A DNA stretch of 64,000 nucleotides from a virus, in IMG/VR virus record IMGVR_UViG_3300035670_008749, positions 1-64,000 of that record; one strand, written 5' to 3'. Positions 1 through 52,087 of the stretch are shown here, one piece after another. Position 1 is the first letter of the stretch. Every line of letters begins with the position of its first letter. The notes under the pieces are model-generated. The model had not been told where the DNA came from and made no database searches. It saw only the letters and a program-made list of their open reading frames with translations. The translations under genes and the position numbers were made by a program.

Positions 1-3000
1 TCTCAGGATCTTCAGGAACAAGTGGATCATCAGGATCTTCAGGAACTAGTGGAAGCTCAGGATCTTCAGGAACAAGTGGATCATCAGGATCTTCAGGAAC
101 TAGTGGAAGCTCAGGATCTTCAGGAACTAGTGGAAGCTCAGGATCTTCAGGAACATCAGGTTCTTCAGGAACAAGCGGATCTTCAGGAACTAGTGGAAGC
201 TCAGGATCTTCAGGAACAAGTGGATCATCAGGATCTTCAGGAACTAGTGGATCATCAGGATCTTCGGGAACATCAGGTTCTTCGGGAACTAGTGGATCTT
301 CGGGATCTTCAGGATCTTCAGGAACAAGTGGAACATCAGGTTCTTCAGGAACTAGTGGAAGCTCAGGATCTTCAGGAACTAGTGGATCTTCAGGAACTAG
401 TGGAAGCTCAGGATCTTCAGGAACAAGTGGTTCTTCAGGAACAAGTGGATCCTCAGGAACTAGTGGAAGCTCAGGATCTTCTGGAACAAGTGGAACTAGA
501 GGAACAAGTGGAACATCAGGTTCTTCTGGAACTAGTGGAAGCTCAGGATCTTCAGGAACAAGTGGATCATCAGGAACTAGTGGAAGCTCAGGATCTTCAG
601 GAACAAGTGGATCATCGGGAACATCAGGATCTTCAGGAACAAGTGGAAGCTCAGGATCTTCAGGAACTAGTGGATCTTCAGGAACTAGCGGAAGCTCAGG
701 ATCTTCAGGAACAAGTGGATCATCGGGAACATCGGGATCTTCAGGAACAAGTGGTACAGGATTTACTGCTATTTCGCCGACGACAAACAATAATGTACTA
801 ACAGCTAACGGAACAACTAACACTGCTAATTCAGAACCAAATTTAACATTTAATGATTTAACTAATCTATTAACAGTTACAGGTACAGAAATAATAAATG
901 ATTCAACAAATAGCGGTATATCTCTAGAAATTAATTCTACTCCTTCTACTGCTGTTGCTTACACTTCTATTGACATTCTAACTCAGGGAGATGGCACAAA
1001 CGCTACGGATTTATTTGGAGTTAATGCTGATGTGTCTAAAGGAACACTCAAACAAGTAGCATTTAAAGGAAATGTTGATGGAGCAATTGATTACAATAGG
1101 GTATTCCAAGGTACTATAGCAAACGCAGCCAAAGGATCAGAAAATACTATATTTTATGGAGTCAACAGCGTTTCTACTAGCGCTAATGACGAAGAGTATG
1201 GATTTAATTTAACAGTTAATGGTAAAGGGTCTACAACTTCAGATAAATTTGGAGGATACATCTTAGTAGAAAACCCTAATAGAAAAAGTTTCGGAATAGA
1301 CATAGTGGTTAGAGATGCTGATGAGAACTACGGTATACGATCACAAGTTAAAGGAGGCAGTGGACCTGCTAATTACGCGGTTTATGCGTCAAATACATCT
1401 ACTATAGGAACAGCAGGGCCTGAACAGCAATGGGGAGGTTATTTTGAAGCAGCTGCTAGCGGGGATCCGGGAACAATGACAAAGTTCGGAATTCAGACGA
1501 TAGCTATAGGAGACGGATCTACTAACTATGGCGCAAACTTTTATGCTTCGGGTGCCGACCTTACCAACTATGGTTTATATTCTATGGTTGATGGACCTTC
1601 AGGAAGCATAGAAAACGTAGCAGTATTTGGAATAAATAGTTCGTCTATTTCTGCAGGAGGGGACTCAGAATATGGTGGATTCTTTATAGTTGACGCAAAG
1701 GGATCTCCCATAAGCACACTAAAGTACGGTGTGAGATCCATTGTAGATAGGTCAGGAGCAACAGGATACGGGGTACTTTCGCAAGTTAATGGTTCTGACA
1801 TTAATAACTATGGAGGTTATTTTGGAGTTAGTGGCACTTCAGGACCGGAAAACTACGGGGTTTACGCTTCTAACGAATCAGCTGTAGGCGCATTGAAGGA
1901 GGATCAGTGGGGAGGTTATTTTGAAGCAGTTGGTGCAGGACTCACCTCCGCAATGATCAAATATGGAGTTGACACTAGTGTTGCTAATGATGGAAGAATT
2001 AGCTATGGGGTTAGAACATCTGTTACCTCAGCAGATGAGTCTAACTGGGGAGTATATGCCGAGCTTAGCGGAACTTCTGGTGATAGAGGAAACGCGGCAG
2101 TATATGGAAGAAATAGCATTTCTAATCCTAACCCGCCAGGAAAAGGTGGACGTCCTGAATGGGGTGGATCCTTTGAAGTGGACGGAATAGGATTAACTGG
2201 AGGCACAGATAAGTTTGGCGTAGCTGGAAGAGTCACCCTAGCATCAAGATATTCATATGGAGTTTGGGGTCTTGCTCAAGATGCAGAAAGCGGTAGTTAC
2301 GGGGGATATTTTCTAGCCAAGGGAACTTCAGGATCAAATGCTGCTGTATCTGCAATAAACAGTTCTGTTAATGGCGCTGGATCTGATGCACAACACGGCG
2401 GATACTTTGAATCCTCTGGTGTAGGTTTACCATCATCAACAACCAAATATGGTATAGAAGCTAACGTAAACGGAAATGGTAAAACTCACTACGGGGTATT
2501 ATCGGTAGTTGAGGATGGAAACCAAACCAACTATGGCGTATATACAAAAGTACAGGGCACTTCTGGATCGAATTATGGAGTATACTCAATAAACGTATCT
2601 ACTGAGTCTGGTACTGACAGTCAATGGGCAGGATATTTTGAAGCATCTGCCACCGGAGGTTTAGGTACGAATAAGCACGGTATAGAGATATCAGTTAAAC
2701 ACTCAGCAGGAAATCACTACGGGGTTAAATCGGAAGTTCAGGGAGCCACTAACATTAATTACGGGGTAAAATCATCTGTCACAGGGTCAGCTGGTACAGC
2801 TAATTATGCAGTTCATGCAGTAAACTCTTCCTTTGATAACGGAGGCGGAGATACTCAATGGGGAGGATATTTCGAAGTTAGTGGGTCTTCGGGTTCAGGA
2901 GCTAAGTATGGCGTACAAGTTATTGCTACAGGAGCAGCTGGTACAAATTACGGAGTTCACGTAGAAACAACCTCAGGGAGCATTAATTATTCACTCTATG

Positions 3001-3437
3001 CTAATAAAGGAAGGCACACTTTCTATCACGATCCTAATACAGAATTAGGGGTAAATGATCCGGAAGGATATGGCGATATAGTGTATTTCGGCGGTGGGGG
3101 AAGCACATTTAATGCTGGTGATGTTGTTTATTTAGATAATGCGGGAGATTGGTTACAAACGGATGCAGCTGCAACTGGTACTGCCATTAATATGCTAGCT
3201 GTTGCACTAGGGACTGCCCCTAGTGATGGACTACTAGTTAGGGGATATGTTCGATATTCTGTATGGGGTTTTAACTCAGGAGAACCTCTATATTTAGAAA
3301 CTGGCGTACCTGGGGGAATTACAGGAACAGCTCCTAGTGCTGCTGGTGAAGTCGTAAGAATTATTGGGTATTGTACAGATGCAGCAAATAGGGATAAGAT
3401 CTACTTTAATCCCGATGGAAGTTGGATAGAAATATAA
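1..3437 (+). CDS. Giant tail fibre / adhesin with collagen-like tract (5' partial)
   Basis: The gene enters from the left edge: reading from base 3, the frame is open to the stop at 3435-3437. The first ~250 residues are an uninterrupted Gly-X-Y tract (X/Y almost only Ser or Thr), a collagen-like stalk. After a short linker come about eight ~80-residue repeats, each with Asn-Tyr-Gly-Val-Tyr-like and Trp-Gly-Gly-Tyr-Phe-Glu-like strands. The C-terminal ~140 residues (from about 3010) lose the repeat and contain a Gly-rich turn; they may form the tip. Collagen-like stalks and repeated beta modules are common in phage fibres, and the next genes are also adhesin-like, so a virion fibre role is likely. 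The true start lies outside the window. A GTG at 1032 could be taken as a start, but the frame stays open upstream of it, so it is internal. Confidence 0.8.
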   Translation, partial: SGSSGTSGSSGSSGTSGSSGSSGTSGSSGSSGTSGSSGSSGTSGSSGSSGTSGSSGTSGSSGTSGSSGSSGTSGSSGSSGTSGSSGSSGTSGSSGTSGSSGSSGSSGTSGTSGSSGTSGSSGSSGTSGSSGTSGSSGSSGTSGSSGTSGSSGTSGSSGSSGTSGTRGTSGTSGSSGTSGSSGSSGTSGSSGTSGSSGSSGTSGSSGTSGSSGTSGSSGSSGTSGSSGTSGSSGSSGTSGSSGTSGSSGTSGTGFTAISPTTNNNVLTANGTTNTANSEPNLTFNDLTNLLTVTGTEIINDSTNSGISLEINSTPSTAVAYTSIDILTQGDGTNATDLFGVNADVSKGTLKQVAFKGNVDGAIDYNRVFQGTIANAAKGSENTIFYGVNSVSTSANDEEYGFNLTVNGKGSTTSDKFGGYILVENPNRKSFGIDIVVRDADENYGIRSQVKGGSGPANYAVYASNTSTIGTAGPEQQWGGYFEAAASGDPGTMTKFGIQTIAIGDGSTNYGANFYASGADLTNYGLYSMVDGPSGSIENVAVFGINSSSISAGGDSEYGGFFIVDAKGSPISTLKYGVRSIVDRSGATGYGVLSQVNGSDINNYGGYFGVSGTSGPENYGVYASNESAVGALKEDQWGGYFEAVGAGLTSAMIKYGVDTSVANDGRISYGVRTSVTSADESNWGVYAELSGTSGDRGNAAVYGRNSISNPNPPGKGGRPEWGGSFEVDGIGLTGGTDKFGVAGRVTLASRYSYGVWGLAQDAESGSYGGYFLAKGTSGSNAAVSAINSSVNGAGSDAQHGGYFESSGVGLPSSTTKYGIEANVNGNGKTHYGVLSVVEDGNQTNYGVYTKVQGTSGSNYGVYSINVSTESGTDSQWAGYFEASATGGLGTNKHGIEISVKHSAGNHYGVKSEVQGATNINYGVKSSVTGSAGTANYAVHAVNSSFDNGGGDTQWGGYFEVSGSSGSGAKYGVQVIATGAAGTNYGVHVETTSGSINYSLYANKGRHTFYHDPNTELGVNDPEGYGDIVYFGGGGSTFNAGDVVYLDNAGDWLQTDAAATGTAINMLAVALGTAPSDGLLVRGYVRYSVWGFNSGEPLYLETGVPGGITGTAPSAAGEVVRIIGYCTDAANRDKIYFNPDGSWIEI
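3..758 (+). repeat. Collagen-like Gly-(Ser/Thr)-Ser coding repeat
   Basis: About 250 codons in frame 3 have Gly at every third position with GSS and GTS triplets in irregular order. One Arg interrupts the X/Y positions near 497. At DNA level this is a degenerate 9-base array of gga-tct-tca and gga-act-agt units. Such arrays recombine easily, so the copy number probably varies. Other frames are also open here but encode low-complexity shadows. Confidence 0.9.
1137..2990 (+). repeat. Eight ~80-residue fibre repeats
   Basis: The Asn-(Tyr/Ala)-(Gly/Ala)-Val-Tyr-like element recurs near 1137, 1371, 1611, 1851, 2091, 2334, 2571 and 2803, a period of about 240 bases. In most units it is followed about 20 residues later by Trp-Gly-Gly-Tyr-Phe-Glu. 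The units have diverged, which fits repeated beta domains along a fibre shaft. Confidence 0.8.
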
Positions 3438-3441
3438 TATT

Positions 3442-4611
3442 ATGCCTAAGGTAAACGGAGCAACTATAACATCAGAATCTAAAATAATGGGTAGAAGTGT
3501 TACCTCCATGTCGGGAATTATGGGGGTTAAAACCAAGAACATCCCCGGTTGGCCATCTGCTGCTTCTGGTCCTACTAATATTAGTCCCCCAGATATATTT
3601 GCCAACATCAGTCCGCCTCTGCTTTGGAACAATTACGGTGCACAAGCTAGCAGAGGAATATGGACCGGCACAGGAGACATATCATATCTTTATAAATGGT
3701 TTTCCAACGGCGAACTTATATCAACACAAGGTCCCTATCCATACGTAGATAGTAAAGGTAATATAAACGATTCCCCTCCTACGATAATGGTCGGACCTAG
3801 CGTGATGTTTACCACATTGGAGCTTCAAGTAACTGCGACTGATGATCTTGGTTCAACCACAGTTTCGACAAGTGCCCCGGTAGAGGATGCTAATTTAAAT
3901 ACCTTCCTAGCAAATTCGGGAATATCAGCTGAAAATAGAGTTGCAGCCTTGCAGTATTTACAAAAAGAGCTGATCGTTGGTGGTATTTTATCTAACAACT
4001 CGGCTAATTTAGATTATTATCCTTTTGCGGGAGAGGATGAATATCAAAATAAATGGTCTCTTGGAAATCCCTCTGAATATTTACAGTTTAGTGGATCCTG
4101 GAGTCATAGTGCTAATGGATCACAAACTAATGGAGGAATAGCAACAAGTACGAAGACATTTAATAATGAAATTAATAATCTGACCTGGGCTTATGGAATG
4201 TACACTAATACTAACGTGACAGAAAGCTCAATAGACCTATCTTTTAATACTATATACGGAAACTGGGAATTTGGAGCACAGCGTGATGTAGAAGGAGCAA
4301 GAAAAGTCTATTGGACTAGGCCAGGGGGAACAATTGATACTTCTATATCATCAGTAAGCTCAACTGGGCTTTCTGGACTATATAGGTACGGGCAAAATCC
4401 GCCTAATGAAATGATAGTAATATCCGGCGGAACAGTTCTGGGTCCAGTTTCTTTTGTGGGGGTATTCGAAGCAGCAAGAGGATATACTTTCGTTATAGGT
4501 GGGACAGGATCGACTAAAAACTTCCAATTTGCTTTTAATGGAAACAACTTTGTATATTGGGGACCACTTAAAACTATCCTAGAGAATTATAACACGATGT
4601 TAGGTAGATAA
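3442..4611 (+). CDS. Probable tail fibre / virion adhesin
   Basis: This 389-residue protein starts four bases after the giant fibre gene. Residues ~55-150 look like an immunoglobulin/PKD-type beta domain (Pro-rich start, 'YKWFSNGE' and 'LQVTATDDLGS' strands). The rest is rich in Ser, Thr, Asn, Gly and aromatic residues, as in beta-rich receptor-binding proteins. There is no signal peptide or membrane segment. Position between other adhesin genes supports a tail role. I do not recognise a named family for the C-terminal part. Confidence 0.6.
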   Translation: MPKVNGATITSESKIMGRSVTSMSGIMGVKTKNIPGWPSAASGPTNISPPDIFANISPPLLWNNYGAQASRGIWTGTGDISYLYKWFSNGELISTQGPYPYVDSKGNINDSPPTIMVGPSVMFTTLELQVTATDDLGSTTVSTSAPVEDANLNTFLANSGISAENRVAALQYLQKELIVGGILSNNSANLDYYPFAGEDEYQNKWSLGNPSEYLQFSGSWSHSANGSQTNGGIATSTKTFNNEINNLTWAYGMYTNTNVTESSIDLSFNTIYGNWEFGAQRDVEGARKVYWTRPGGTIDTSISSVSSTGLSGLYRYGQNPPNEMIVISGGTVLGPVSFVGVFEAARGYTFVIGGTGSTKNFQFAFNGNNFVYWGPLKTILENYNTMLGR

Positions 4612-4626
4612 TATATAAATATTGAA

Positions 4627-5658
4627 ATGGCTAGAGCTTTCGCATACAGTGCATCAGGAACACCTATCCCAGGAACAAAGAAATTATCAACTTTGTATTT
4701 CCAGGATGAGAACCTCGATTATTCATCAAATCCAGGTGGATTAACTTGGTGGCAGGGACCAGATGAAAATTTGGGATATATTATAACAAGAGCAGTTCCA
4801 TCACAGGATCACCCAACTCCTCTTGGGAATATAGGATCTGTAAAATTTTTTAGAACATCATCTTTTACAGAATCTGAGTTTATTTCTTTAGCACAATCAA
4901 TAGCTGGGCAAACCTTTGTTAGTGGAGATGCAGCTAAAATCTGGCTTAATTCTAATAACTATTGGACTTCTTATGAATCAATATATAATCCCACACTTCA
5001 GGTTTACTTAGACGCGGGTAATTCTTCGTCATACGGAGGAGTTGGTTCAACATGGAACGATTTAAGCGGAATAGGAAATAATGCAACACTAATTAATACT
5101 CCCACTTACAATTCATCGTCTGGCGGATATTTTAGTTTTAGCGATACATCATTTGAATATGCAACTATTCCCAACATTGGAGATCTATCCACTTGGACAG
5201 TTGAGGCTTGGGCTAGACCACAAAAATCATTAACAGGAAAGGTCACAATGATTGTTGGTAATCAATATAATCTAGCAACAAAGCTTAATTTTTCGCTCGG
5301 AACTAATAATGCTCCAACTAATTATAACATGACTGCAGGATTTTTTGACGGATCGTGGAAAAGCGCTAATGGTTATACGGTTCCCACATTAAATACCTGG
5401 TACCATTTTGTTGGAACATACGATGGATCAACGGTTAAATTATACGTTAACGGATCATTGTCATCTTCTTTTTCTGTATCAGGAACTCCTCAATCTGGGG
5501 GCGAAATTAGAATAGCAAGAAGATGGGACAGTGCATCTAATAATGCAGCAAACTTCTTTGATGGTGATATAAGTATAGTTAGAGTTTATGGAAGCGCTCT
5601 TAATTTAGTAGATGTACAAGGTAATTTTAACGCATCAAGACACAGATATTCTATTTAA
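4627..5658 (+). CDS. Tail adhesin with LamG / concanavalin-like lectin domain
   Basis: This 343-residue protein has two parts. Residues 1-~118 are a domain shared with the next gene (LDYSS-x-PGG, WW-x-GP, TP-x-GN-x-G-x-VKF, then -YWTS-). Residues ~120-340 look like a LamG/concanavalin A-like lectin fold: 'VYLDAGN', 'TWNDLSGIGNNA', 'WTVEAWARP', 'WYHFVGTYDGS', 'LYVNGS' and a final strand pair are typical of the Laminin_G_3 group. The likely role is binding surface sugars. The duplicated N-terminal domain would then be the docking part that attaches different heads to the same site. The lectin call is confident; the docking role is inferred. Confidence 0.75.
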   Translation: MARAFAYSASGTPIPGTKKLSTLYFQDENLDYSSNPGGLTWWQGPDENLGYIITRAVPSQDHPTPLGNIGSVKFFRTSSFTESEFISLAQSIAGQTFVSGDAAKIWLNSNNYWTSYESIYNPTLQVYLDAGNSSSYGGVGSTWNDLSGIGNNATLINTPTYNSSSGGYFSFSDTSFEYATIPNIGDLSTWTVEAWARPQKSLTGKVTMIVGNQYNLATKLNFSLGTNNAPTNYNMTAGFFDGSWKSANGYTVPTLNTWYHFVGTYDGSTVKLYVNGSLSSSFSVSGTPQSGGEIRIARRWDSASNNAANFFDGDISIVRVYGSALNLVDVQGNFNASRHRYSI

Positions 5659-5659
5659 T

Positions 5660-6442
5660 ATGGCATCAAGACAGTTTGCATACAATCCCACACAGGCTTC
5701 TATATCTGGAGCAACTTTAGTTGGAACTTTAGCTGTTGGAAGTAGCTCATTAGATTATTCATCAGATCCAGGAGGAATAGATTGGTGGATGGGACCGGAA
5801 GAAAGTACAGGATATGTTATAGCTACCGTTCATACACCATCTGATTTTCCTACCCCAGTAGGAAATGTAGGTACAGTTAAATTCTGGAGAACAAATGCTC
5901 TTAGCGACAGCGAATTTAGAAGTCTAGCAGAATACATAACCGGACAAACTTTTGTCGATGCAGCGGCAGCTAAAACATATTTAAATAATAATAGTTACTG
6001 GACTTCTTGGGCTCCTTCCGCAGTTACATTTTCACAGACATTCACGGGCGGGCAAGCACCGTCCACAGCCACAGAAAACGCATGGACAACATTTAGATCA
6101 CAGCTTACAGGATCTTATACAAGCATGGCTCTTTCAAATAATCTAGGACACAGTATTACAGTTACTGATGCAACTAAAGTACAAGACATAGCTAATGCTT
6201 TAAGAACAGCTACTACGGGTACAAACACCACAGTAGTTATAGGAGCTAATACATGGAGAATAGCTCACGGATGCGTAGCTGGTACTCCTAATGCTAATTC
6301 AATATATTTAACGACTGGAGGATTATGTACATGCGGAGGAACATACACAGTAAGACCCATGATAAAAAATGCCAATTGGGGAGGATTAAATGGAAGTTCT
6401 TGTAACCAGCCTACCCAAACAATAACGCTAACTTTCACATAA
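5660..6442 (+). CDS. Tail adhesin, paralogous N-terminus with different C-terminal head
   Basis: The ATG at 5660 directly follows the upstream stop and begins 'MASRQFAYNP', matching 'MARAFAYSAS' of the previous gene; an upstream in-frame start at 5612 would overlap that gene and is less likely. Residues 1-~117 are clearly paralogous to the previous protein (LDYSS-x-PGG, WW-x-GP, GN-x-GTVKFWRT, GQTFV, YWTSW). The C-terminal ~140 residues are unrelated to LamG: Thr/Ala/Asn-rich, with a cluster of Cys near the end ('LCTCGG' and 'SSC'). The pair shows modular exchange of receptor-binding heads on one anchor. Confidence 0.7.
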   Translation: MASRQFAYNPTQASISGATLVGTLAVGSSSLDYSSDPGGIDWWMGPEESTGYVIATVHTPSDFPTPVGNVGTVKFWRTNALSDSEFRSLAEYITGQTFVDAAAAKTYLNNNSYWTSWAPSAVTFSQTFTGGQAPSTATENAWTTFRSQLTGSYTSMALSNNLGHSITVTDATKVQDIANALRTATTGTNTTVVIGANTWRIAHGCVAGTPNANSIYLTTGGLCTCGGTYTVRPMIKNANWGGLNGSSCNQPTQTITLTFT

Positions 6443-6443
6443 T

Positions 6444-6578
6444 ATGTACTATATAATAGATTTAAGAAAAGACCCACCAGAAAAAGTTCCGGATGTGCAG
6501 TTCGAAACACAGGAAGAATGCTGTAACTGGATAGATGAAAATGGAGACGCATCCATTTACATTATAATCGAAGAATAA
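6444..6578 (+). CDS. Small hypothetical protein, 44 aa
   Basis: A short frame begins with ATG one base after the adhesin stop and ends at 6578. The product starts 'MYYIIDLRKDPPE' and ends in an acidic 'IIIEE', with two adjacent Cys in the middle. The tight spacing and lack of any alternative gene support translation. Function unknown; by position it could be a fibre accessory protein or chaperone. Confidence 0.5.
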   Translation: MYYIIDLRKDPPEKVPDVQFETQEECCNWIDENGDASIYIIIEE

Positions 6579-6637
6579 TTCAATAACTCAAGAAAACTTT
6601 AATCATAAAAGGTCTATAATTTTTAATATAGATAATT

Positions 6638-9600
6638 ATGATTAAAGTTAGAGCTCACACTTGCTATTTAGGCCACAGTGGATATTCAGCACATTCAAGA
6701 TCTTTTTTTAGAGAACTTTCTAAACATGTTGATTTAAGAATAAGGAATTACACATGGGATTCAAATCCTGATTATATAAATGAAACAGACCTAGAAATAA
6801 TCGACAGAATAACTCTTAGAGATCCCGACGGAAAAGATAGCGACTATCCTATTTCACATTCATTTCCAAACTTAAATTGGAAAAATGTAAATTCGGAATT
6901 TACTCCAGATGTTGACATAGTCCTAATGGACATGGATCATTTCTATTTTTACGAAGAATATAATTCTAAAATAAAAATAGCATACACCGTATGGGAAAGC
7001 ACTGAGATACCAAATCACTTCTTTAAACAACTACTAAAATTTGATTACCTCTGGGTAGCCACAGAGTGGCACAAAGAAGTAATAGTAAATCAAGGATATC
7101 CAGAATTTAGAGTCTTTGTAGTAAACGAAGGAGTTAGCAATGAATTTTTTAATGAGGATGGATTTGCAGTTCCAGAGGACTATAATGATAATAGATTTAA
7201 ATTTATTTTCTTTGGTAGATGGGACTATAGAAAATCAGTTCCAGAAATAATAGATTCTTTTCTAAAGGCTTTTCCTAATAACGAGCCAGTAGATCTTATA
7301 ATAAGTGCGGATAATCCATACGCAGTTGATGGAATGAATAGCACAGAAGAAAGAATGAATCACTATGGATTTAATGACGAGAGAATAAAAATAAAACACT
7401 TCTTAACTAGAGAACAGTATGTAAACTACATAAAGAGTGGACATGTGCTAATAACTTGTGCTAGGAGCGAAGGGTGGAATATTCCCCTTATTGAAGCTAT
7501 GGCAGCAGGAACACCAGTGATCTACTCAGATTGGGGAGCTCAATTAGAATTTGCGGGAGGAAAAGGATCTCCCGTAAAAATAAGGACAGAACTACCAGCT
7601 TCGCTTGGTGCAGATCTAGGATTTGCTGGTAACACACCAGGACTTTATGCAGAACCAGACTACGAGGACTTAATAGAGGTATTAAAAGATTGCTTTAATA
7701 ATTATCAGGAGAAAAAAGAGTCTGCTGTTAAGCAGTCTGTTGAAATAAAACAAAAATACAATTGGGAAAAAATAGGGGAGAATGGATATTTCACACTACT
7801 AAAAGTTCTTCCTAGAAAAATAGAGTCAACTCCAAAGGGTGAAGCGGCTGTTGTTCTTTCACATTGCGAGACTAGAGATAAACTTTTGTGCCTAACTAGA
7901 TGTTTGATCAATTTGAAGTCTCAGGGATACTTTGTTATATTATCTTCCCATATATCAGTTCCCGATTACATATTAGATATGTGTGATTATTTTGTATGTG
8001 AAACAGATAATCCTATAGTGGAGAAAAAAGAGTATCACGCTCTTTCAAGAACCACACCAGTTCATTGGTTCAACTATCCAGGAGAATATCAGCTATCGTA
8101 TCCTTTCGATTTTAATCATGGATTTGCAGCTTTAAGACTTATTCAGAATGGTGTTAATGTAGCTATTCAAAACGGATTCAACAAAACACACTTTATAAAT
8201 TATGATTATATAATAGAAGATGAATCAACTATTCCTTCACACTCAGAAGCTTTAGATAGTTTTTCAGTGGTAAGTTATTTATGGAATGCTTATAAATCCA
8301 TCAATTCTGGATTTTTCTCTGCTATAAGCCAAGATTTGTATAAAGCTATAGAATCTACAAGAAAAAAAGCTGACTATTTTAGATTCGATGAGGTTGTAAT
8401 ATTAGAAGACTTTCTTTTCAGATGTATAGAAGAAAGCAGTTTATCGATCAATATAAGAGATCCTAAGGACGAAAAAAAGAAAAATATATTTAACTCCTTC
8501 ATGGTTAAAACTTATCCTTATATAAAGACAAATAAAGGCGGGTACGCTCATATTTATTTAGGTAAAGAAACATCAACAGGAGAGCACTTTGTATGCGTTT
8601 CAGGAACACAAGAAGAGGAGATAAAAGCAGAAATTATATACAACGGAGAAAGTGTAGAAGTCAAAGCACCATTCCATCCTATGAAATTTTTCACAATCCC
8701 AGATGAAATGATGAATAATGGATTTGAAGTTTATGTGCCCGAGTATGATATAAAATATGAATATTCTAAGGATTCTAAATATGCTGATATCAACATACAT
8801 AATAAGGACCTAATTTTTAATCTTTACGAGAGAGAACCTAAATTTAATATCCATTTTATAGATGGTCCTTTCGTAGAAATTAAGAACACTCCCGGTGGAG
8901 TTTTCTTAGTCCAATTCATAGACTCTGACACTAATACTATAAAATACGAGACAGTACTACAGAATAATCATTGGGCAAGATCCTCTTTTAAATACTATAT
9001 AAACTGGTTAATCAAGCTAACTAATTTAAAAACAAATAAAGTTTATGAGTATAGACAAGATTTAACAGGGAAAAGAATTCTTATTTCTTTTGAATCCTCT
9101 TCGTTAGGCGACACCTTAGCTTGGGTTCCTTATGCTGATGAGCTAAGAAAAAAATACAATGCTGATGTTTATGTGTCAACATTTAAAAATTCATTATTTT
9201 CTGGTCAATACCCAGAAGTAAAATTTATTCAACCTGGAACACCTGTTGATAATTTATATGCTTTATATAGGATAGGATGGTTTTATGATGGTGATAGATT
9301 CAATAGCTCTTTGAATCCATCGGACTTTAAAAATGAACCTTTACAAAAAACTGCTTCGGATATCTTAGGAATTGAGTATAGCCCAATACCAGCAAAGCTT
9401 AACTTACCAGATTTACCTAAACCTTTACAAGAACCCTATGTTTGTATTGCTATCCATTCAACAGCACAAGCTAAATACTGGAATAATCCTACAGGATGGC
9501 AAGAAGTTACAGATTGGCTAATATCAAATGGATATAAAGTTGTAATGCTGAGCCTAGAAGAAGATGGATACATGGGTAATTATTATCCAAAGGGTATAAC

Positions 9601-10543
9601 GCTAGTAGAAGGGGAAAGGAGCTTAACAAATGCAATAAACTATTTACAGCATTCTGAAATGTTTATAGGTATTGGATCTGGACTAAGCTGGCTTTCATGG
9701 TCTGCTGGTATACCAACAGTGATTATTTCAGGATTCAGTAATCCTATTACAGAACCTCTAGATGACAAGATAATAAGAATATTTAATGATCAAACATGTA
9801 ACAGCTGTTTTAACAGATATAGATTAGATGCAGGTGATTGGAATTGGTGTCCAGACCACAAAGGAACAGAAAGACAATTCGAATGTACTAAATCTATTAC
9901 AGGTTCTTCTGTAATAAAAGAAATATCTAAATTTCTAAATTTTAAAACACATCAAAAATCAGTAGGGACTATAATCGATGAATCATACTCTCTAGGAATG
10001 ATACAAAATCTAAGTGAGATAACGCAAGCAGCAGAGTTTTTTAAACAGATGAATGTTAAAAATTTCATGGAAATAGGAACAGATCAAGGGGGAACTTTTG
10101 CAATATGGAGCAAGCTATCAGAAGATGGTATAAGAATATCAGTTGATATGCCACACGGTACTTATGGAGTGAGCAGCTATGATGTGAATAAAAGAGATGA
10201 ATATCTTAGATCATTAGGTAGTAACGTAACCATGATACATGGAGATTCACACTCGGAAGAAATAAAAAATAGAATTTCATCTATGTTAAAAGAGGGGGAA
10301 TTAGATTTCCTTTTTATAGACGGAGATCACACATATGAAGGAGTTAAAAAAGATTACGAAGACTATAAGAAGTATGTTAAAGAAGGAGGATGGATAGGAT
10401 TTCATGACATAAAAGACACGGAGTTTCATAGGAACGCAAACTGTAGAGTTGATCTTTTATGGAATGAATTAGGAGGAGAAAAAATAGAATTTGTAGACAA
10501 TTCATCGCAGTATGGAGGAATAGGATTTATTAAAAAACAATAA
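6638..10543 (+). CDS. Giant GT4 - TibC-like heptosyltransferase - methyltransferase fusion
   Basis: This 1301-residue protein shows at least three enzymatic modules. Residues 1-~390 form a GT-B glycosyltransferase of GT4 type: 'FFGRWDYRKS', then 'ARSEGWNIPLIEAMAAGTP' near 275. Residues ~390-810 are a less clear connecting region, including beta-rich sequence. Residues ~811-1100 resemble GT9-like bacterial autotransporter heptosyltransferases (TibC/Aah): 'ISFESSSLGDTLAWVPY', a helical region with 'GIGSGLSWLSWSAGIPTVIISGF', then a four-Cys motif (C1054, C1057, C1071, C1083; 'GDWNWCPDHKGT' and 'FECTKSIT') like the TibC metal finger. Residues ~1110-1301 are a Methyltransf_24-type class I SAM methyltransferase ('FMEIGTDQGGT', 'FLFIDGDHTYEGVKKD'). 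TibC-type enzymes O-glycosylate Ser in repetitive beta adhesins, so the upstream Ser/Thr-rich fibres are candidate substrates. Domain calls are from motifs; donor and acceptor are inferred. Confidence 0.8.
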   Translation: MIKVRAHTCYLGHSGYSAHSRSFFRELSKHVDLRIRNYTWDSNPDYINETDLEIIDRITLRDPDGKDSDYPISHSFPNLNWKNVNSEFTPDVDIVLMDMDHFYFYEEYNSKIKIAYTVWESTEIPNHFFKQLLKFDYLWVATEWHKEVIVNQGYPEFRVFVVNEGVSNEFFNEDGFAVPEDYNDNRFKFIFFGRWDYRKSVPEIIDSFLKAFPNNEPVDLIISADNPYAVDGMNSTEERMNHYGFNDERIKIKHFLTREQYVNYIKSGHVLITCARSEGWNIPLIEAMAAGTPVIYSDWGAQLEFAGGKGSPVKIRTELPASLGADLGFAGNTPGLYAEPDYEDLIEVLKDCFNNYQEKKESAVKQSVEIKQKYNWEKIGENGYFTLLKVLPRKIESTPKGEAAVVLSHCETRDKLLCLTRCLINLKSQGYFVILSSHISVPDYILDMCDYFVCETDNPIVEKKEYHALSRTTPVHWFNYPGEYQLSYPFDFNHGFAALRLIQNGVNVAIQNGFNKTHFINYDYIIEDESTIPSHSEALDSFSVVSYLWNAYKSINSGFFSAISQDLYKAIESTRKKADYFRFDEVVILEDFLFRCIEESSLSINIRDPKDEKKKNIFNSFMVKTYPYIKTNKGGYAHIYLGKETSTGEHFVCVSGTQEEEIKAEIIYNGESVEVKAPFHPMKFFTIPDEMMNNGFEVYVPEYDIKYEYSKDSKYADINIHNKDLIFNLYEREPKFNIHFIDGPFVEIKNTPGGVFLVQFIDSDTNTIKYETVLQNNHWARSSFKYYINWLIKLTNLKTNKVYEYRQDLTGKRILISFESSSLGDTLAWVPYADELRKKYNADVYVSTFKNSLFSGQYPEVKFIQPGTPVDNLYALYRIGWFYDGDRFNSSLNPSDFKNEPLQKTASDILGIEYSPIPAKLNLPDLPKPLQEPYVCIAIHSTAQAKYWNNPTGWQEVTDWLISNGYKVVMLSLEEDGYMGNYYPKGITLVEGERSLTNAINYLQHSEMFIGIGSGLSWLSWSAGIPTVIISGFSNPITEPLDDKIIRIFNDQTCNSCFNRYRLDAGDWNWCPDHKGTERQFECTKSITGSSVIKEISKFLNFKTHQKSVGTIIDESYSLGMIQNLSEITQAAEFFKQMNVKNFMEIGTDQGGTFAIWSKLSEDGIRISVDMPHGTYGVSSYDVNKRDEYLRSLGSNVTMIHGDSHSEEIKNRISSMLKEGELDFLFIDGDHTYEGVKKDYEDYKKYVKEGGWIGFHDIKDTEFHRNANCRVDLLWNELGGEKIEFVDNSSQYGGIGFIKKQ

Positions 10544-10544
10544 T

Positions 10545-11174
10545 ATGGCAAACGGGATATACAAGATAACGGAAGATTTTGAGAAAGCATTAGGAGATTA
10601 TACAGGAGCTCCTTATGTGGTAACAGTTGATAATCAGAGCAATGCTCTTTTTCTCGCTCTAATGTATGAAAAAGTATCAGGTATGGAAATCACTATTCCT
10701 GCTAGAACTTACCCGTCAGTACCTTGTGAAATTATCCATGCTGGTGCTAGGGTTAAATTTAAAGATGTTAAAGGTAAAACTTTAAAAGGTGCTTACCAAT
10801 TAGAGCCAACAAATGTTTGGGATTCTGCTTTAAAATTTACAGCTGATATGTATATCCCAGGAACTCATATGTGTGTATCTTTTACTGGACCGTATAAGCA
10901 CTTTAAGTTGAGCAAGGGTGGAGCTATTCTAACAGATAGCTTGGATGCTTATCATTGGTTTAAGAGAGCGAGATATTCTGGAAGAAGAGAATGTTCTTAC
11001 CATGACGATCACTTTGATATGTTAGGATGGAACTTCTATATGATGCCAGAATTAGCTGCTCGTGGTCTTTTACTTATGAATCAATTTTACAATACTGACG
11101 GTACTAAGAAAGTAAACCAAGATCTGGAACTTCCTTATCCTGATCTATCTAAATTTAAAATATACAAACAATGA
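10545..11174 (+). CDS. DegT/DnrJ/EryC1-type sugar aminotransferase, C-terminally short
   Basis: This 209-residue protein matches the large PLP domain of DegT/DnrJ/EryC1/StrS sugar aminotransferases: 'VTVDNQSNALFLAL' (phosphate-binding turn), 'ITIPARTYPSVPCEIIHAGA', 'SFTGPYKHFKLSKGGAILTD' (Schiff-base Lys region) and 'LGWNFYMMPELAARGLLLM'. Usual members have 360-400 residues; this one stops where the C-terminal small domain should begin. The frame has a normal stop and tight coupling to the next gene, so it is a short form rather than an obvious frameshift. It may transaminate a keto-sugar nucleotide; the Gmd product made by 48096-49118 is one candidate. Whether it is active without the small domain is uncertain. 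Confidence 0.65.
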   Translation: MANGIYKITEDFEKALGDYTGAPYVVTVDNQSNALFLALMYEKVSGMEITIPARTYPSVPCEIIHAGARVKFKDVKGKTLKGAYQLEPTNVWDSALKFTADMYIPGTHMCVSFTGPYKHFKLSKGGAILTDSLDAYHWFKRARYSGRRECSYHDDHFDMLGWNFYMMPELAARGLLLMNQFYNTDGTKKVNQDLELPYPDLSKFKIYKQ

Positions 11175-11803
11175 TAATACCGACAAGAGAATCTTTAAGA
11201 ATTGTAAGAGATATAGCTGAAAATATGGAAGGTAATACCTTTCACCATCATTTTCATATTCTATATGATTTAAGAAGCCAAATAGAAAAAGATCACGTTA
11301 AATATTTAGAGATAGGTACACATTCGGGTGCTTCTGCTTGTCTAATGTTATTACATCCCAAAAAAACTGACGTCTTTGCAGTTGATTTATTAGAAAGTCC
11401 AATGCACTATGCAGTTTTAATAAACACTGCCAGATTTAAAATGCCAGAAAATTCTTTTGAATATTTTACAGGTAATTCAAGAGAAAGTAAATTTGTAGAT
11501 AAGATTACAAAAGAAGTAGGAAACATTGACATTCTTTTTATAGATGGTGATCATAGGAGAGAGGCAGTCATAGATGATTTTTTAAATTATAAGGATCTAC
11601 TAAACCCCGGAGGTTTTATTATATTTGACGACTACAACGACTATGAATACAATCCCATAGTTAAACATGGCGTTGATTATATAGTAAACGAATTACTTTT
11701 TGATGAATACGAAGTTTGGGGATTCTGTTACAATAAAGTAGGAGCTCATCCAGTAGAGATGATCTATAACAACGAATTTGTTATCAGAAAAAAAATTAAA
11801 TGA
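11171..11803 (+). CDS. Class I SAM methyltransferase (Methyltransf_24 type)
   Basis: A 210-residue protein whose ATG overlaps the upstream stop by four bases. SAM-binding motif I is 'YLEIGTHSGASA' (residues ~45-56), followed by 'VFAVDLLESP' and 'IDILFIDGDHRREAVIDDF' (motif IV-like), then 'LNPGGFIIFDDYNDYE'. This pattern is shared with the C-terminal domain of the giant fusion upstream and with 51163-51783. Members of the group often methylate sugars or modify surface polysaccharide precursors. The acceptor cannot be told from sequence. Translational coupling on both sides places it in the glycan block. Confidence 0.75.
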   Translation: MIIPTRESLRIVRDIAENMEGNTFHHHFHILYDLRSQIEKDHVKYLEIGTHSGASACLMLLHPKKTDVFAVDLLESPMHYAVLINTARFKMPENSFEYFTGNSRESKFVDKITKEVGNIDILFIDGDHRREAVIDDFLNYKDLLNPGGFIIFDDYNDYEYNPIVKHGVDYIVNELLFDEYEVWGFCYNKVGAHPVEMIYNNEFVIRKKIK

Positions 11804-12378
11804 GGAAAGCTTTATTTGGATTTGGTGGACATGCTAAGGAAGTATATACACAGATAGGAGGAGATATAACATTTTTCGTTGATGATAATTACGCCAACGA
11901 AAAGACTCTACCTATATCTTCTTTTGATCCCGAAGAATTCCAAATAATGATATGTGTGGCTAATTCTTTTGAAAGAGAAAGAATAGCTAAAAGATTACCT
12001 AGCAAAACTAAATACTTTTCATTTATCCATCCTACATGCTTAGTCATGGACAATAATATAGAAATAGGGGAAGGATCTTTTATTGGAGCTTATTCAATAT
12101 TAACTACAAATATTAGATTAGGTAAGCACACATTAATTAATAGAGGAAATCATATAGGGCACGACACAATAGCAGGGGATTTTTTAAGTATGATGCCTGG
12201 ATCTATAATATCTGGAAATGTTACTATTGGGGATAGAGTGTATCTAGGGACTAATTCTTCTATTATAGAAAAAATTAAAGTGTGTGACGATGTTATACTA
12301 GGAGCTAATAGTGCCACAGTAAAAAATATAGATGTCCCTGGAACATATGTTGGTGTTCCCTCTAAAAAGATTAAATAA
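11800..12378 (+). CDS. NeuD/PglD-like sugar acetyltransferase
   Basis: The 192-residue protein starts with a short Rossmann-like half ('KALFGFGGHAKEVYTQIGG', residues 3-21), typical of NeuD/PglD/PerB proteins. It continues with left-handed beta-helix hexapeptide repeats (from about residue 75 to the end: 'IGEGSFIGAYS', 'GNHIGHDTIAGD', 'GNVTIGDRVYLGTNSSI', 'VPGTYVGVPSKKIK'). The catalytic His is probably the one in 'GHD'. This family N- or O-acetylates sugars, often after a DegT aminotransferase, and one lies two genes upstream. With GDP-mannose dehydratase elsewhere in the window, an N-acetylated perosamine-type product is possible but unproven. Confidence 0.8.
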   Translation: MRKALFGFGGHAKEVYTQIGGDITFFVDDNYANEKTLPISSFDPEEFQIMICVANSFERERIAKRLPSKTKYFSFIHPTCLVMDNNIEIGEGSFIGAYSILTTNIRLGKHTLINRGNHIGHDTIAGDFLSMMPGSIISGNVTIGDRVYLGTNSSIIEKIKVCDDVILGANSATVKNIDVPGTYVGVPSKKIK

Positions 12379-14006: not shown

Positions 14007-14875
14007 AAAGAAGAATCAAGCTAATAAACGAACAATTTGCACAATCTATAAATGGTGATGGGTTTAATAGTTCCAACGGAGTATTTAAAGTCAACTACAA
14101 GGCTTACTCCGATCTTTCCATTGCGGTTGGAAGAGATGCAGATCCTAGTTTATTAGTCAAGGATTCTGTTTTTCAAGTTGGTGACATAGTAGAAGGTAAA
14201 GCAAAAGGAACAAATAAAAAGATAAAAGGCGAAGTCATAGAAACGTTTAAAGCTACTGATGGTAAGTCCTATATCATAAAAATACAGTCATTAAAAAATA
14301 AAAAAAATTACACACTAATCCCAGGATCTATTGAATTTTGTGAGGATAGAGGTAATTCAAAAAATGTTATGGGAATGGGAATAGATTCCAGGGAAAAAAA
14401 CGCACAAAATCTTAAATATAACGGGGGAAACATTATTTGGGGATCTTTAGAAAATAAAGCCCTAGATCATCCATATTTGGATGTTGAAGGTGATCCAGTA
14501 GAAGGACCGATGGGAACTGGCTGGAAAATTCAATTCTCCGACAATTTACCGGAGGAGGATCTTGTGTTTAATTGTTTTATACCAGCTCCAGAAAAAAATA
14601 CTATACATTTTTCTAGGTCATCCACCAATAGTGCATTTAAGGACATTTTAAAAGCAGCAGAGGCATTCTGTTATTTCTGTTATCATCCTGAACTTTCAGA
14701 AGAAACCCTAGATTTAAAAACTCTACTTTCCATTTTATTTTTAGAATTAAAAAACGAAATGGAACCAAAAAAACATGTTATACAGCATTTCCCTTCGATT
14801 TGTAATAAGTCATACGGAGAATCCAAAGACGAAAATATAGAAAAAGCAAGAGAAATCATAAACCGATTTTTGTAA
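14003..14875 (+). CDS. Hypothetical protein
   Basis: A 290-residue protein whose ATG overlaps the previous stop. It starts 'MKRRIKLINEQFAQS', which loosely resembles the hydrophobic-x-Glu propeptide motif of the head proteins in this window. Residues ~50-105 look like an SH3/KOW-like small beta barrel ('FQVGDIVEGKAKGTNKK' then 'GEVIETFKATDGKSYIIKIQSL'). The rest contains a Gly-rich 'EGPMGTGWKIQFSDN' and a helical C-terminus. I do not recognise the family. Confidence 0.6.
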   Translation: MKRRIKLINEQFAQSINGDGFNSSNGVFKVNYKAYSDLSIAVGRDADPSLLVKDSVFQVGDIVEGKAKGTNKKIKGEVIETFKATDGKSYIIKIQSLKNKKNYTLIPGSIEFCEDRGNSKNVMGMGIDSREKNAQNLKYNGGNIIWGSLENKALDHPYLDVEGDPVEGPMGTGWKIQFSDNLPEEDLVFNCFIPAPEKNTIHFSRSSTNSAFKDILKAAEAFCYFCYHPELSEETLDLKTLLSILFLELKNEMEPKKHVIQHFPSICNKSYGESKDENIEKAREIINRFL

Positions 14876-15660
14876 TGTCCATAGAGAGAAAGAGAAATCT
14901 TTTAAGAGTAACAAGGGAAAGATTTGTTAATGGTATAAAGCCGCCGGCTCCTCCGCCAAATCATATGACTACCCCAAGTGTAGAAAAAAAAGAAATTATC
15001 CATAATAAATCGGAAAGGATAAAGACATCTATAAAATCATCCTATCTAGGAAATTCACTCTATCCTAATTACATAAATAAATTTAACGGGGAGACATTTA
15101 TTGTAGCAGGATGTGGTTCATCTATTAATATCTATAAGGACTTTAGTAAATATTATGTAATAGGGGTTAATGATATAGAGAGAATATTAACTCCAGATTT
15201 TTTAGTGGTAGTAAACGACCATAGAACTTTTATGAGAGGAAGATGGGAATATGTAAGGGATTCTTTAAGTCCTGTCATATTTACACACCTTGATAATCCC
15301 GGACCTATAAATAGAGCTAGCCATCTATCTAGAATAAAAATAGGATCTAGGAACACCCCGAATTTAGATAATCTAACAGCTGTAGATTACACAATGAATT
15401 CACCTTACATGGCAATCATAATAGCATACCAATTAGGAGCTAAAAAGATAGGAATGGTAGGAGTAGATTTTACACAAGATCATTTCTTTGCAAATACAGG
15501 ATCACACAAACTATCTAAGCACGTTAAAAATATTGATCAGGAATATCTTGTTCTAAGGAATCTTTTAGAAGCTAAGGGAGTAAAAGTTGCAAATCTTTCC
15601 CCTATAAGTTTATTGTCTTCCTGGCCAAAAATGGATCTAGATCAGTTTGATTCTCTTTAA
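14875..15660 (+). CDS. DUF115 / GT42-like putative sugar transferase
   Basis: A 261-residue protein whose ATG overlaps the last base of the preceding stop. After a basic, Pro-rich N-terminus (~60 residues), 'TFIVAGCGSSINIYKDF' and 'VIGVNDIERILTPDFLVVVND' resemble the nucleotide-binding start of DUF115 proteins and of GT42 (Cst-type) transferases. 'SPYMAIIIAYQLGAKKIGMVG' followed by 'VDF' matches the second conserved block. Such proteins transfer or handle activated sugars in bacteria and are common in large phages. Substrate unknown. Its C-terminus has 'LEAKGVKVANLSPIS', also typical of the family. Confidence 0.55.
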   Translation: MSIERKRNLLRVTRERFVNGIKPPAPPPNHMTTPSVEKKEIIHNKSERIKTSIKSSYLGNSLYPNYINKFNGETFIVAGCGSSINIYKDFSKYYVIGVNDIERILTPDFLVVVNDHRTFMRGRWEYVRDSLSPVIFTHLDNPGPINRASHLSRIKIGSRNTPNLDNLTAVDYTMNSPYMAIIIAYQLGAKKIGMVGVDFTQDHFFANTGSHKLSKHVKNIDQEYLVLRNLLEAKGVKVANLSPISLLSSWPKMDLDQFDSL

Positions 15661-15692: not shown

Positions 15693-16445
15693 ATGGACAC
15701 AATAAGAAATGGATTCATTATAAGGATTCCTGAGGGGAATTACAAGGGATCATCACTTGCTAGAATTATATGTGACAGAATAAAAAGTTACTTAAGCTTA
15801 GGATATAAGTTATTTATAGTAGAGCTTTCTGAGAAGGATATAGAATTTTCCACTGAAGTTACTGAACCGGAGAAGGAGAGATTTTTTTATTATCTAGACG
15901 ATCTTAATATAAGAATCGCTTTTTATATAAAGAGTAAGTATCATGTAGTATCGACCGATCCTGATTCAAGAAAAAAAGCTAAGAACGAAATTATTAAGAT
16001 CGGCAGGTTTATAGAAGAGATAGACGCGGGAAGATTTGATATACCACTAATATGTCACATTGGAGGAGCTAATGGAAACAGAAGAAAAAGTATGGGGGAT
16101 TTTTGTAAATTCTTTGATACTCTTCCTTGGAGAATACAGAAACAAATAGCACTAATCAATGATGATAAGCCTAGTCTTTTTTCTGTTAAGGACTTATTGT
16201 CTGTTACTTATGTAGAGAAAAAAATACCTATCATATTTAGAACAGGATCTCATAGAACTAATCAAGGGGGTTTAACATATAAGGAAAGTCTTTTTTTAGC
16301 TGCTTCAACTTGGGCTGAAAGATCGAATCCTATAATGTTTTATTGTCCTTCTAGCAAAGAAGAAACTATAACGGTAAACGATCTTAATCCGTACAATTTA
16401 ATTATAGATGTGGCTTTTGATAACAATTTACCAGAACCTAACTAG
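15693..16445 (+). CDS. UvdE-like (UV-damage endonuclease fold) protein, metal ligands altered
   Basis: The 250-residue protein resembles the second half of UvdE/UvsE TIM-barrel endonucleases. 'LICHIGGANGNRRKSM' corresponds to the conserved His-x-Gly-Gly element, followed by an 'LPWRIQKQIALINDDK' segment like the family's Leu-Pro ... Glu-Asn-Asp-Asp block, then 'DLLSVTYVEKKIPIIFR'. In active enzymes the Glu before Asn-Asp-Asp and the Asp after the Pro-Ile/Val-Phe strand bind metal; here they read Ile and Arg. The protein may therefore be inactive as a nuclease or act differently. The next gene is an Fpg/Nei glycosylase, which supports a DNA-repair context. Total length is shorter than typical UvdE (about 300). 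Confidence 0.55.
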   Translation: MDTIRNGFIIRIPEGNYKGSSLARIICDRIKSYLSLGYKLFIVELSEKDIEFSTEVTEPEKERFFYYLDDLNIRIAFYIKSKYHVVSTDPDSRKKAKNEIIKIGRFIEEIDAGRFDIPLICHIGGANGNRRKSMGDFCKFFDTLPWRIQKQIALINDDKPSLFSVKDLLSVTYVEKKIPIIFRTGSHRTNQGGLTYKESLFLAASTWAERSNPIMFYCPSSKEETITVNDLNPYNLIIDVAFDNNLPEPN

Positions 16446-16465
16446 AAAATTCTTACATTTGCTAT

Positions 16466-17266
16466 ATGCCAGAACTAGCAGAAATAAAAATAATGAGTGA
16501 CCACATTAATAATAAATGTGGGGATAAAGAATTTTTTCTCTTAGAAAAAAATCCAGCTCACAAGTCAAAAACGGATCTTTCCCCTATTCACGAAATAATT
16601 TCATCAGGGTGTAATATTTTCAGCGAAGCCAGAGGAAAAGAATTAAGAATGGATTTTAAAAATAAGGAAAACAAGATTTCTTTATTTTTTATGATGGGTA
16701 TGTCCGGTAATTTTAAATTTGGAAATTCTCAACAAGAACCAAAGCACACTCATTTAAAATTTCGTACAAGAGAAGGAGAATACCTTTATATGTATGATCT
16801 AAGGAGATTTGCTAGATGGAAAGTGGGAACTCAATGGAACACAGAAAGAGGTCCTTGCCCGGTAAATGAATTTGTGGAATTTAGAAAAAATTTACACGAA
16901 TCCCTAGATAGAAAATGCTTTCAAAAGCCTATCTATGAAGTATTAATGAATCAGGAATACTTTAACGGAATAGGAAATTATTTAAGAGCAGAAATACTTG
17001 GTAGGATAGATTCAGATCCCACAGTAAGCGGAAAAGAATTTATTACTAAGAATCCGGAAGTAGTTGATTTATGTAAACGTATACCACAAGAAGCTTACAT
17101 ATTGGGAGGAGGAAGATTAAAGGATTGGTATAATAATGAAAAAATAAATCAAGAAGATTTAGATTTTAAATCTTGGATGCGTTTTTATGGAAACATAGAA
17201 ACGTGTATGCCTTTTAAAGACTCAAACGGAAGAACTTTTTGGATTGATAAAAAATGGGTTCAGTAA
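16466..17266 (+). CDS. Fpg/Nei-family DNA glycosylase
   Basis: A 266-residue base-excision repair enzyme. It begins 'MPELAEIK', giving the catalytic Pro2 and Glu3 of the family (after Met removal). K58 in 'ARGKEL' matches the conserved Lys of the N-terminal domain. The helix-two-turn-helix is clear ('YFNGIGNYLRAEILG', residues ~169-183). The C-terminal finger is zincless: it keeps the 'GRTFWIDKKWVQ' hairpin with its Arg but has only one Cys instead of four, as in NEIL1-type proteins. It would remove oxidised bases from DNA. The adjacent UvdE-like gene and exonuclease suggest a small repair set. Confidence 0.85.
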   Translation: MPELAEIKIMSDHINNKCGDKEFFLLEKNPAHKSKTDLSPIHEIISSGCNIFSEARGKELRMDFKNKENKISLFFMMGMSGNFKFGNSQQEPKHTHLKFRTREGEYLYMYDLRRFARWKVGTQWNTERGPCPVNEFVEFRKNLHESLDRKCFQKPIYEVLMNQEYFNGIGNYLRAEILGRIDSDPTVSGKEFITKNPEVVDLCKRIPQEAYILGGGRLKDWYNNEKINQEDLDFKSWMRFYGNIETCMPFKDSNGRTFWIDKKWVQ

Positions 17267-38185: not shown

Positions 38186-38186
38186 T

Positions 38187-41258: not shown

Positions 41259-41261
41259 AAT

Positions 41262-41882: not shown

Positions 41883-41883
41883 G

Positions 41884-42471: not shown

Positions 42472-42473
42472 AT

Positions 42474-44125: not shown

Positions 44126-44127
44126 TT

Positions 44128-44826: not shown

Positions 44827-44830
44827 AAAA

Positions 44831-47174: not shown

Positions 47175-47178
47175 AAAA

Positions 47179-51152: not shown

Positions 51153-51162
51153 AAATATAAAT

Positions 51163-51783: not shown

Positions 51784-51822
51784 TTCGAAATTATTTATGA
51801 GTCATAACCTATAAAATATAGT

Positions 51823-52083
51823 ATGAATCTGGAAGAGGGTTTTAAAATGGTTATTTCTAGAGAAAAAGGTAAAGCTTATGTAGAAATAACTAGACACAAA
51901 GAGTCCTATATGAGCAACATACTTATAATAAATAGCTTCGGCAGTAAAAGATATGAAGAAACTTGGATAATAGAAAAAGATTTAGATGCCTGGATTTCTT
52001 CTTTAGCAAGGGAAGGATTCACAAAGATAAAAACTATAGAAGATGTGGAGTCTCCTAAAAAAAGTACTAAAAAGAAAAAATAA
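51823..52083 (+). CDS. Small hypothetical protein
   Basis: An 86-residue charged protein with a basic C-terminal tail ('SPKKSTKKKK'). It starts 40 bases after the methyltransferase in a region containing 'cctataaaatatag', a possible promoter element. The middle ('SFGSKRYEETWIIEKDLDAWI') looks alpha/beta. Function unknown. Confidence 0.6.
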   Translation: MNLEEGFKMVISREKGKAYVEITRHKESYMSNILIINSFGSKRYEETWIIEKDLDAWISSLAREGFTKIKTIEDVESPKKSTKKKK

Positions 52084-52087
52084 TAAT

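Follow-up and report, generated by a model that had tools for sequence, protein, structure and literature searches.

What might an aquatic phage do with a single long protein in which sugar-transferring domains are joined to a methyltransferase, and whose gene lies beside fibre genes? The question is raised by IMG/VR virus record IMGVR_UViG_3300035670_008749, of which bases 1-64,000 (the window) were analysed; the full record has 77,632 bases and may be incomplete. An open reading frame (ORF) at 6638-10543, on the plus strand like all window features with an assigned strand below, runs for 1301 codons with no internal stop and is preceded by four fibre-like ORFs. Its product is a fusion of GT4, GT-A-like, TibC-like and Methyltransf_24 domains (Pfam, NCBIfam, PHROGs and phmmer), and we think it probable that this fusion O-glycosylates the tail fibres of the phage itself in several steps.

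Domain organisation and the TibC-type domain

Residues 736-1105 of the fusion (8843-9952) form a complete TibC-type domain. Residues 752-1098 match TIGR04414 (hepto_Aah_TibC) with E=2e-94 and 316.5 bits, against a curated cut-off of 200, and a phmmer search of PDB sequences placed TibC (4rap/4rb4) first (E about 1e-68), with 38% identity over the domain (133/349). The profile for lipopolysaccharide (LPS) heptosyltransferases gave a weak 18.5 bits. The four-Cys finger and the GDW-x-WC (here GDWNWC) and FECT motifs, which the first-pass annotation had read as signatures of TibC, are all present. That annotation had proposed a structural match of residues ~811-1100 to TibC as a check, and the match was found. 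In an AlphaFold2 model of residues 396-1105 (alignment of 34 sequences, mean predicted local distance difference test score (pLDDT) 83), the best Foldseek match is TibC chain 4rap_D, with E=6e-36 and a template modelling (TM) score of 0.85, normalised by TibC, over 378 columns. The top 21 matches are all TibC chains, and GT9 heptosyltransferases, among them WaaF and WaaC, come next. The predicted structure contains the beta-barrel, GT-B core, thumb and iron finger of TibC, and the TibC-like region is therefore longer than first described, starting near residue 736 and taking in the N-terminal beta-barrel.

The residues chosen for comparison were those mutated in TibC in PMC4358343, and the comparison set comprised 59 distinct phage relatives, bacterial sequences and TibC itself. 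Relatives were gathered by one IMG/VR pattern scan, which gave 205 encoding stretches, of which 80 were kept. Asp825 (codon 9110-9112) aligns with the catalytic base Asp110 of TibC, and Thr226, Lys230 and Trp305 are kept as T942, K946 and W1018. The Phe-Val pair of the thumb is replaced by Tyr-Met, also a hydrophobic pair, and the iron finger (Cys1054-Cys1083, 9797-9886) has Cys1054, 1057, 1071 and 1083 aligned with TibC Cys339, 342, 358 and 370. None of the 59 phage relatives departs from TibC at the equivalents of Asp110, Lys230, Trp305 and the four Cys, all have a hydrophobic thumb pair, and 58 have Thr226.

The GT4, GT9-like and Methyltransf_24 domains listed by the first-pass annotation are confirmed by Pfam matches above curated cut-offs (Glycos_transf_1 at residues 183-304, Glyco_transf_9 at 930-1060, Methyltransf_24 at 1145-1258). 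The GT4 region, residues 1-395 (6638-7822), scores 42.5 bits with PF00534 (cut-off 26.4) and 39.3 bits with PF13692 (cut-off 27), and the phage glycosyltransferase family phrog_2170 matches residues 87-381 with E=1e-29. The methyltransferase, residues 1106-1301 (9953-10540), scores 62.1 bits with PF13578 (cut-off 26.3) over profile positions 2-105 of 105. Passed over in the first-pass annotation was the stretch between, residues 396-735 (7823-8842), which has no Pfam family match and no PDB sequence match. Modelled alone by AlphaFold2 (pLDDT 85), it resembles GT-A enzymes in Foldseek with E down to 6e-6 and query-normalised TM-scores of only ≤0.40. The model suggests a second, GT-A-like glycosyltransferase domain (~396-610), followed by a beta-rich segment of small elements. 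Weak Foldseek matches to the human collagen glycosyltransferases LH3 and ColGalT1 are common to many GT-A folds and were not used.

A sister subfamily of TibC

Arg286 of TibC makes contact with adenine, and its mutation to Ala abolishes or largely diminishes activity (PMC4358343); the window protein has Ala999 (9632-9634) at this position, and Gly1013 at that of the heptose-stereoselectivity residue Pro300 (PMC4358343). The Arg286 position is occupied by V, L, I, A or T in 57 of the 59 phage relatives, and both positions are replaced almost throughout the subfamily. Eight bacterial sequences share the phage pattern, and the other 13, with TibC, have Arg at the 286 position. A 100/100 branch of the maximum-likelihood tree divides the phage-pattern group from the canonical clade. 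The genes adjoining the fusion gene are those of phage fibres, not of an autotransporter. As judged from sequence, then, the domain belongs to a TibC-like sister subfamily of the bacterial autotransporter heptosyltransferases (BAHTs) and is not a BAHT proper, because the TIGR04414 threshold, the fold and the catalytic residues are all there but Arg286 and the autotransporter partner are not. An initial assignment to the TibC/Aah type thus holds for family score and fold, but has to be narrowed to this sister group with its replaced adenine-contacting Arg.

The architectures found among relatives are standalone enzymes of about 385 residues, an N-terminal domain with TibC, GT4 with TibC, and GT4 with the middle domain and TibC. 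The full four-domain form occurs in the window, L005 and L007, and among the relatives examined only these and L008 carry Methyltransf_24 in one chain with the TibC domain. The best match among isolated phages is WWT39291.1 of Microcystis phage Mel-JY01 (PP395634), whose gene is the second one after that of an annotated structural protein. This protein, encoded at 4750-8430 of our locus L004 (PP395634.1) and labelled 'methyltransferase FkbM', is a GT4/TibC-type fusion. The standalone form likely has a partner, a 727-residue GT4-containing protein (L060, 7785-9968) whose gene lies directly upstream of the TibC-like gene; it is conserved in its branch and has matches at 48/59 loci, some of them to a domain only. 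In L423, L433 and L437, proteins of 1139-1141 residues carry a C-terminal TibC-like domain and are encoded on the opposite strand near HldC/HldA-like genes; the other domains of the window protein have no match in the first ~790 residues of these proteins.

Linkage to Ser/Thr-rich collagen-like proteins

The candidate acceptor fibre in the window is the ORF at 3-3437, which starts upstream of base 3 and is truncated by the left end of the contig. On reading its sequence we find a collagen-like (Gly-Ser/Thr-Ser)n tract of ~256 residues, 131 of them Ser and 37 Thr, followed by YGVY/GGYFE beta repeats (1032-3437). The fusion gene had been described as directly following fibre genes with such repeats; fibre genes do lie upstream of it, but three other fibre-like ORFs (3442-6442) separate it from the collagen-like one. 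A listed ORF at 22-801 is an out-of-frame reading of the collagen-like repeat and was discarded as an artefact.

Bacterial loci gave an independent test of whether such tracts go with the enzyme. The subfamily is represented there by eight loci, six of which look chromosomal (five from Methylococcaceae and one from a Polaromonas bin); next to the enzyme gene, all six have a gene for a small protein rich in repeats of the Ser/Thr Gly-X-Y (GXY) or GXY-like type. Five of the six small proteins start with a signal-peptide-like stretch; the one at L092 has an interrupted repeat, in which one run of 7 is unbroken. Among the places listed, the Ser/Thr-GXY pattern has no other occurrence in the genomes of L087, L089, L090 and L093, bar one (GTG)n run in that of L087; the genome of L091 carries another tract on the contig of the first, and the interrupted repeat of L092 was missed by the pattern. 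At canonical-type loci a GXY tract was present in 0/9.

The same association is seen in phages, in counts and p-values that ignore kinship among the phages and include many large contigs. TIGR04414 was found in 3 of 80 control viral contigs drawn by a composition-neutral Gly-X-Y DNA pattern. The Ser/Thr share of the X and Y positions of GXY tracts had a median of 79% with the enzyme (n=29) and 24% without (n=76; p=3e-10), and proline made up 0.7% and 11.5%, respectively. When viral contigs were picked prospectively, solely by a Ser/Thr-GXY DNA pattern, the enzyme was present in 26/79, as against 1/76 generic GXY contigs lacking the pattern (p=5e-8); among the 26, one match is partial, lying at the end of its contig, and scores under the TIGR04414 cut-off. 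On shared contigs the median distance from enzyme to GXY tract was 9.5 kb, compared with 17.5 kb under uniform placement (p about 0.02). The association occurs in several branches of the enzyme tree, and a Ser/Thr-GXY tract lies near the Mel-JY01 WWT39291.1 gene. Ser/Thr-rich, proline-poor collagen-like proteins are likely targets of the TibC-like subfamily, because its genes co-occur with them in phages and in some methane-eating bacteria. The suggestion in the first-pass annotation that fibre glycosylation is plausible thus appears strengthened by a linkage found in phages and independently on bacterial chromosomes, while its guide to the acceptor, Ser in autotransporter beta-repeats, is not the best one: the partners found are collagen-like.

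The donor sugar

Operon context in relatives is the evidence that points to heptose as the donor. One branch of phage enzymes of the standalone form has an RfaE2/HldC-like gene (TIGR02199, 103 bits; cut-off 181.5) immediately downstream, often with an overlap of a few bases, and then an HldA-like kinase gene (TIGR02198, 102 bits); both scores are below cut-off. Close downstream of the enzyme, an HldC-like gene is found at 21/59 phage loci and an HldA-like kinase gene at 18/59, and the enzyme lies upstream at every one of the 23 loci of close kinase relatives that were informative. HldC was found in 13/42 contigs with the enzyme and 5/43 without, with a p-value of only 0.036. Viral HldA-like kinases were rejected as a general marker of the TibC-like system, and the phage HldA-like pathway has other uses as well, because the enzyme lay within 10 kb of only 12/80 kinases in a wide scan. 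Among these 80 phage kinases, Ser/Thr-GXY was found nearby in 7/12 with the enzyme and 2/68 without (p=8e-6). The phage HldC-like proteins do not have the Arg of the STTR5 motif, which marks CTP/UTP-using HldC enzymes (PMC11573728) and is not strictly needed for promiscuity (PMC11461863); its absence would fit ADP-heptose. In L033, L041, L042 and L045, and in L359-L361, TibC-like, HldC-like and HldA-like genes and a Ser/Thr-GXY tract all lie within ~10 kb.

The window phage itself does not appear to make heptose. No HldC (PF01467) or HldA (TIGR02198) match was found in its 77,632-base record, so the description of the locus as a 'self-contained' glycosylation machine did not survive. A SIS gene at 49108 was considered as a heptose gene and set aside, being KdsD-like and beside a KDO-8-P synthase gene, and an HldC-like match in the L006 contig lies within a KDO/GDP-fucose-type cluster and was not counted. 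The donor in the window phage would come from the host or from genes in missing sequence, or would be another sugar.

This last possibility is the strongest alternative to a heptosylating fusion: a fibre O-glycosyltransferase whose first sugar is not heptose derived from ADP-heptose, the donor having changed to another nucleotide or to a hexose. It would account for the loss, almost throughout the subfamily, of the adenine-contacting Arg and of Pro/Ser-300, and for a record with no HldC or HldA match yet with GDP-fucose and KDO-8-P genes and many other glycosyltransferases. That the loss of Arg286 excludes a heptose donor was considered, a view softened by the relatives with the same substitution that sit in operons with HldC/HldA-like genes. 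These operons, the retention of Thr226, Lys230 and Trp305, and the missing CTP/UTP-marking Arg of the phage HldC-like proteins (with the caveat on promiscuity given above) make a changed donor somewhat unlikely.

A proposed mechanism and its alternatives

The domains and their linkage lead us to infer what the fusion does, on which acceptor and with which donor, in what order of steps and in what oligomeric state. The TibC-type domain would add the first sugar, most likely heptose, to Ser and perhaps Thr of the fibre proteins, with the collagen-like tract encoded at 3-3437 as the chief acceptor. The GT4 and GT-A-like domains of the same chain may then lengthen this sugar, and the C-terminal methyltransferase may cap the glycan. 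A shared multidomain chain, perhaps in a ring like the TibC dodecamer, would suit efficient processing of long repetitive acceptors. The sugar could possibly stabilise a collagen-like helix almost free of proline. More tentatively, and as a generalisation that we hold to be possible and no better than that, the widespread subfamily may O-heptosylate proline-free (Gly-Ser/Thr-Ser)n proteins (phage fibres and secreted proteins of methanotrophs), the sugar replacing (hydroxy)proline and some phages bringing a partial ADP-heptose pathway.

Several observations weigh against a fibre-glycosylating, heptose-adding fusion. The adenine-contacting Arg is Ala999, the TM-scores behind the GT-A assignment of the middle domain are weak, and the window record has no HldC or HldA match. 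Ser/Thr-GXY was found at only 23/59 phage loci in the locus DNA examined, and its clustering with the enzyme along whole contigs is modest. In the locus DNA examined, Ser/Thr-GXY is lacking from most loci with the heptose operon (the L060 branch), and donor and acceptor evidence coincide in few branches only (the seven loci named above). The disregard of kinship in the phage counts belongs here too.

The acceptor might instead be the beta-repeat region (1032-3437) or the lectin-like fibre region (3442-6442), with the collagen-like tract a bystander. TibC acts on Ser in the beta-helical passenger repeats of autotransporters (PMC4358343), and the beta repeats come after the collagen-like tract within one protein, but in bacteria the partners are small proteins that were recognised by a GXY tract, and it is the Ser/Thr content of GXY that tracks the presence of the enzyme; we consider this alternative unlikely. 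More doubtful still is that the linkage reflects shared ancestry or lifestyle, Ser/Thr-GXY fibres and extra glycosyltransferases both accumulating in large aquatic phages. The neglect of kinship and the size of many contigs would allow it, but the association recurs in several branches of the tree and in bacterial chromosomes, where the genes are neighbours. The least likely is an enzyme that, as phage O-antigen-modifying enzymes do, alters host LPS or capsule to exclude superinfection or convert the serotype: cell-surface glycans could be targets of the second glycan cluster at 37.5-53 kb (GT6, GT11, GDP-fucose and KDO-8-P genes), but the domain scores as a TIGR04414 protein heptosyltransferase and only weakly as an LPS heptosyltransferase, its linkage is to fibre and collagen-like genes, and no membrane or flippase partner was recognised among the genes beside it (Pfam).

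Relation to known systems

The closest characterised relatives of the window domain are TibC and AAH (BAHT; PDB 4rap, 4rb4; PMC4358343), with which it shares the barrel, thumb and iron finger of the fold, the catalytic Asp, the Thr/Lys/Trp set and the Cys. It differs in the changes Arg286 to Ala and Pro300 to Gly, in its place across a 100/100 branch from the canonical clade, in its fusion to two further glycosyltransferase domains and a methyltransferase, and in having a phage fibre/collagen-like protein rather than an autotransporter as partner. TibC transfers heptose from ADP-heptose to Ser and forms a dodecameric ring. Mel-JY01 WWT39291.1 matches it over nearly its full length (GT4, part of the middle domain and TibC) and also adjoins structural-protein genes, but has no match to the C-terminal methyltransferase, and its record does not recognise the likeness to TibC. 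We found no report of TibC-type enzymes in phages in the open-access literature.

Viral enzymes of nucleotide diphosphate (NDP)-heptose biosynthesis are known, and what they do in viruses is described as unsolved in the accounts of Tang et al. (Science 2024) given in PMC11573728 and PMC11461863. One branch of our phages has HldC/HldA-like genes in an operon with a TibC-like enzyme, whereas the window record has none. This operon suggests protein heptosylation as a role for the viral heptose enzymes and, if true, fibre heptosylation would explain the presence of heptose-synthesis genes in some viruses. TibC-type protein heptosylation has been described for autotransporter adhesins; the linkage reported here adds a testable use, the heptosylation of collagen-like fibres, and points to an enzyme, to a sequence likely to be the acceptor and, for some phages, to donor genes. 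It offers, too, a possible explanation of how proline-poor collagen-like fibres are stabilised. In the cuticle collagen of the hydrothermal-vent worm Riftia, the triple helix is said to owe its stability to glycosylated Thr and not to 4-hydroxyproline (in work cited in PMC6953826), although that is an animal protein made with different enzymes and glycosylation of the phage tract is a prediction. Ser/Thr-GXY may serve as a cheap marker for phage fibres that may be glycosylated.

Neighbouring genes

The fibre-like ORFs between the collagen-like gene and the fusion are a Ser/Thr-rich ORF of 389 residues at 3442-4611, with no family match in Pfam or PHROGs; a fibre/receptor-binding-like ORF at 4627-5658 with a lectin-like Laminin_G_3 domain (Pfam, E=5e-22); and an ORF at 5612-6442 that, by sequence comparison, shares with the latter the N-terminal motif DYSS.PGG..WW.GP. 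Between these and the fusion lies a small acidic ORF (6444-6578, ~44 residues, two adjacent Cys), which on reading looks unrelated to the ORF at the same place in Mel-JY01. Downstream, at 10545-12378, Pfam identifies sugar genes: a partial DegT aminotransferase-like gene, a second Methyltransf_24 and a hexapeptide acyltransferase-like gene. The first of these (10545-11174, DegT/DnrJ-like) covers only ~75 of 360 profile positions and is probably truncated or repurposed.

Further along, the second large glycan cluster, at 37562-53180, encodes GT2-like, GT6 (ABO/alpha-Gal family) and GT11 (fucosyltransferase family) enzymes, FkbM and Methyltransf_24 methyltransferases, GDP-mannose 4,6-dehydratase, GDP-fucose synthase, a KdsD-like isomerase and KDO-8-P synthase. 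The occurrence of GT6, GT11 and GDP-fucose genes together suggests that this cluster makes a blood-group-like fucosylated glycan. A weak match at 14875-15660, below cut-off, is to PF01973 (MptE-like), a family related to the Maf-type flagellin glycosyltransferases. A DNA-repair pair, a UV-endonuclease UvdE and a formamidopyrimidine-DNA glycosylase-like protein, is encoded beside the glycan genes at 15693-17266.

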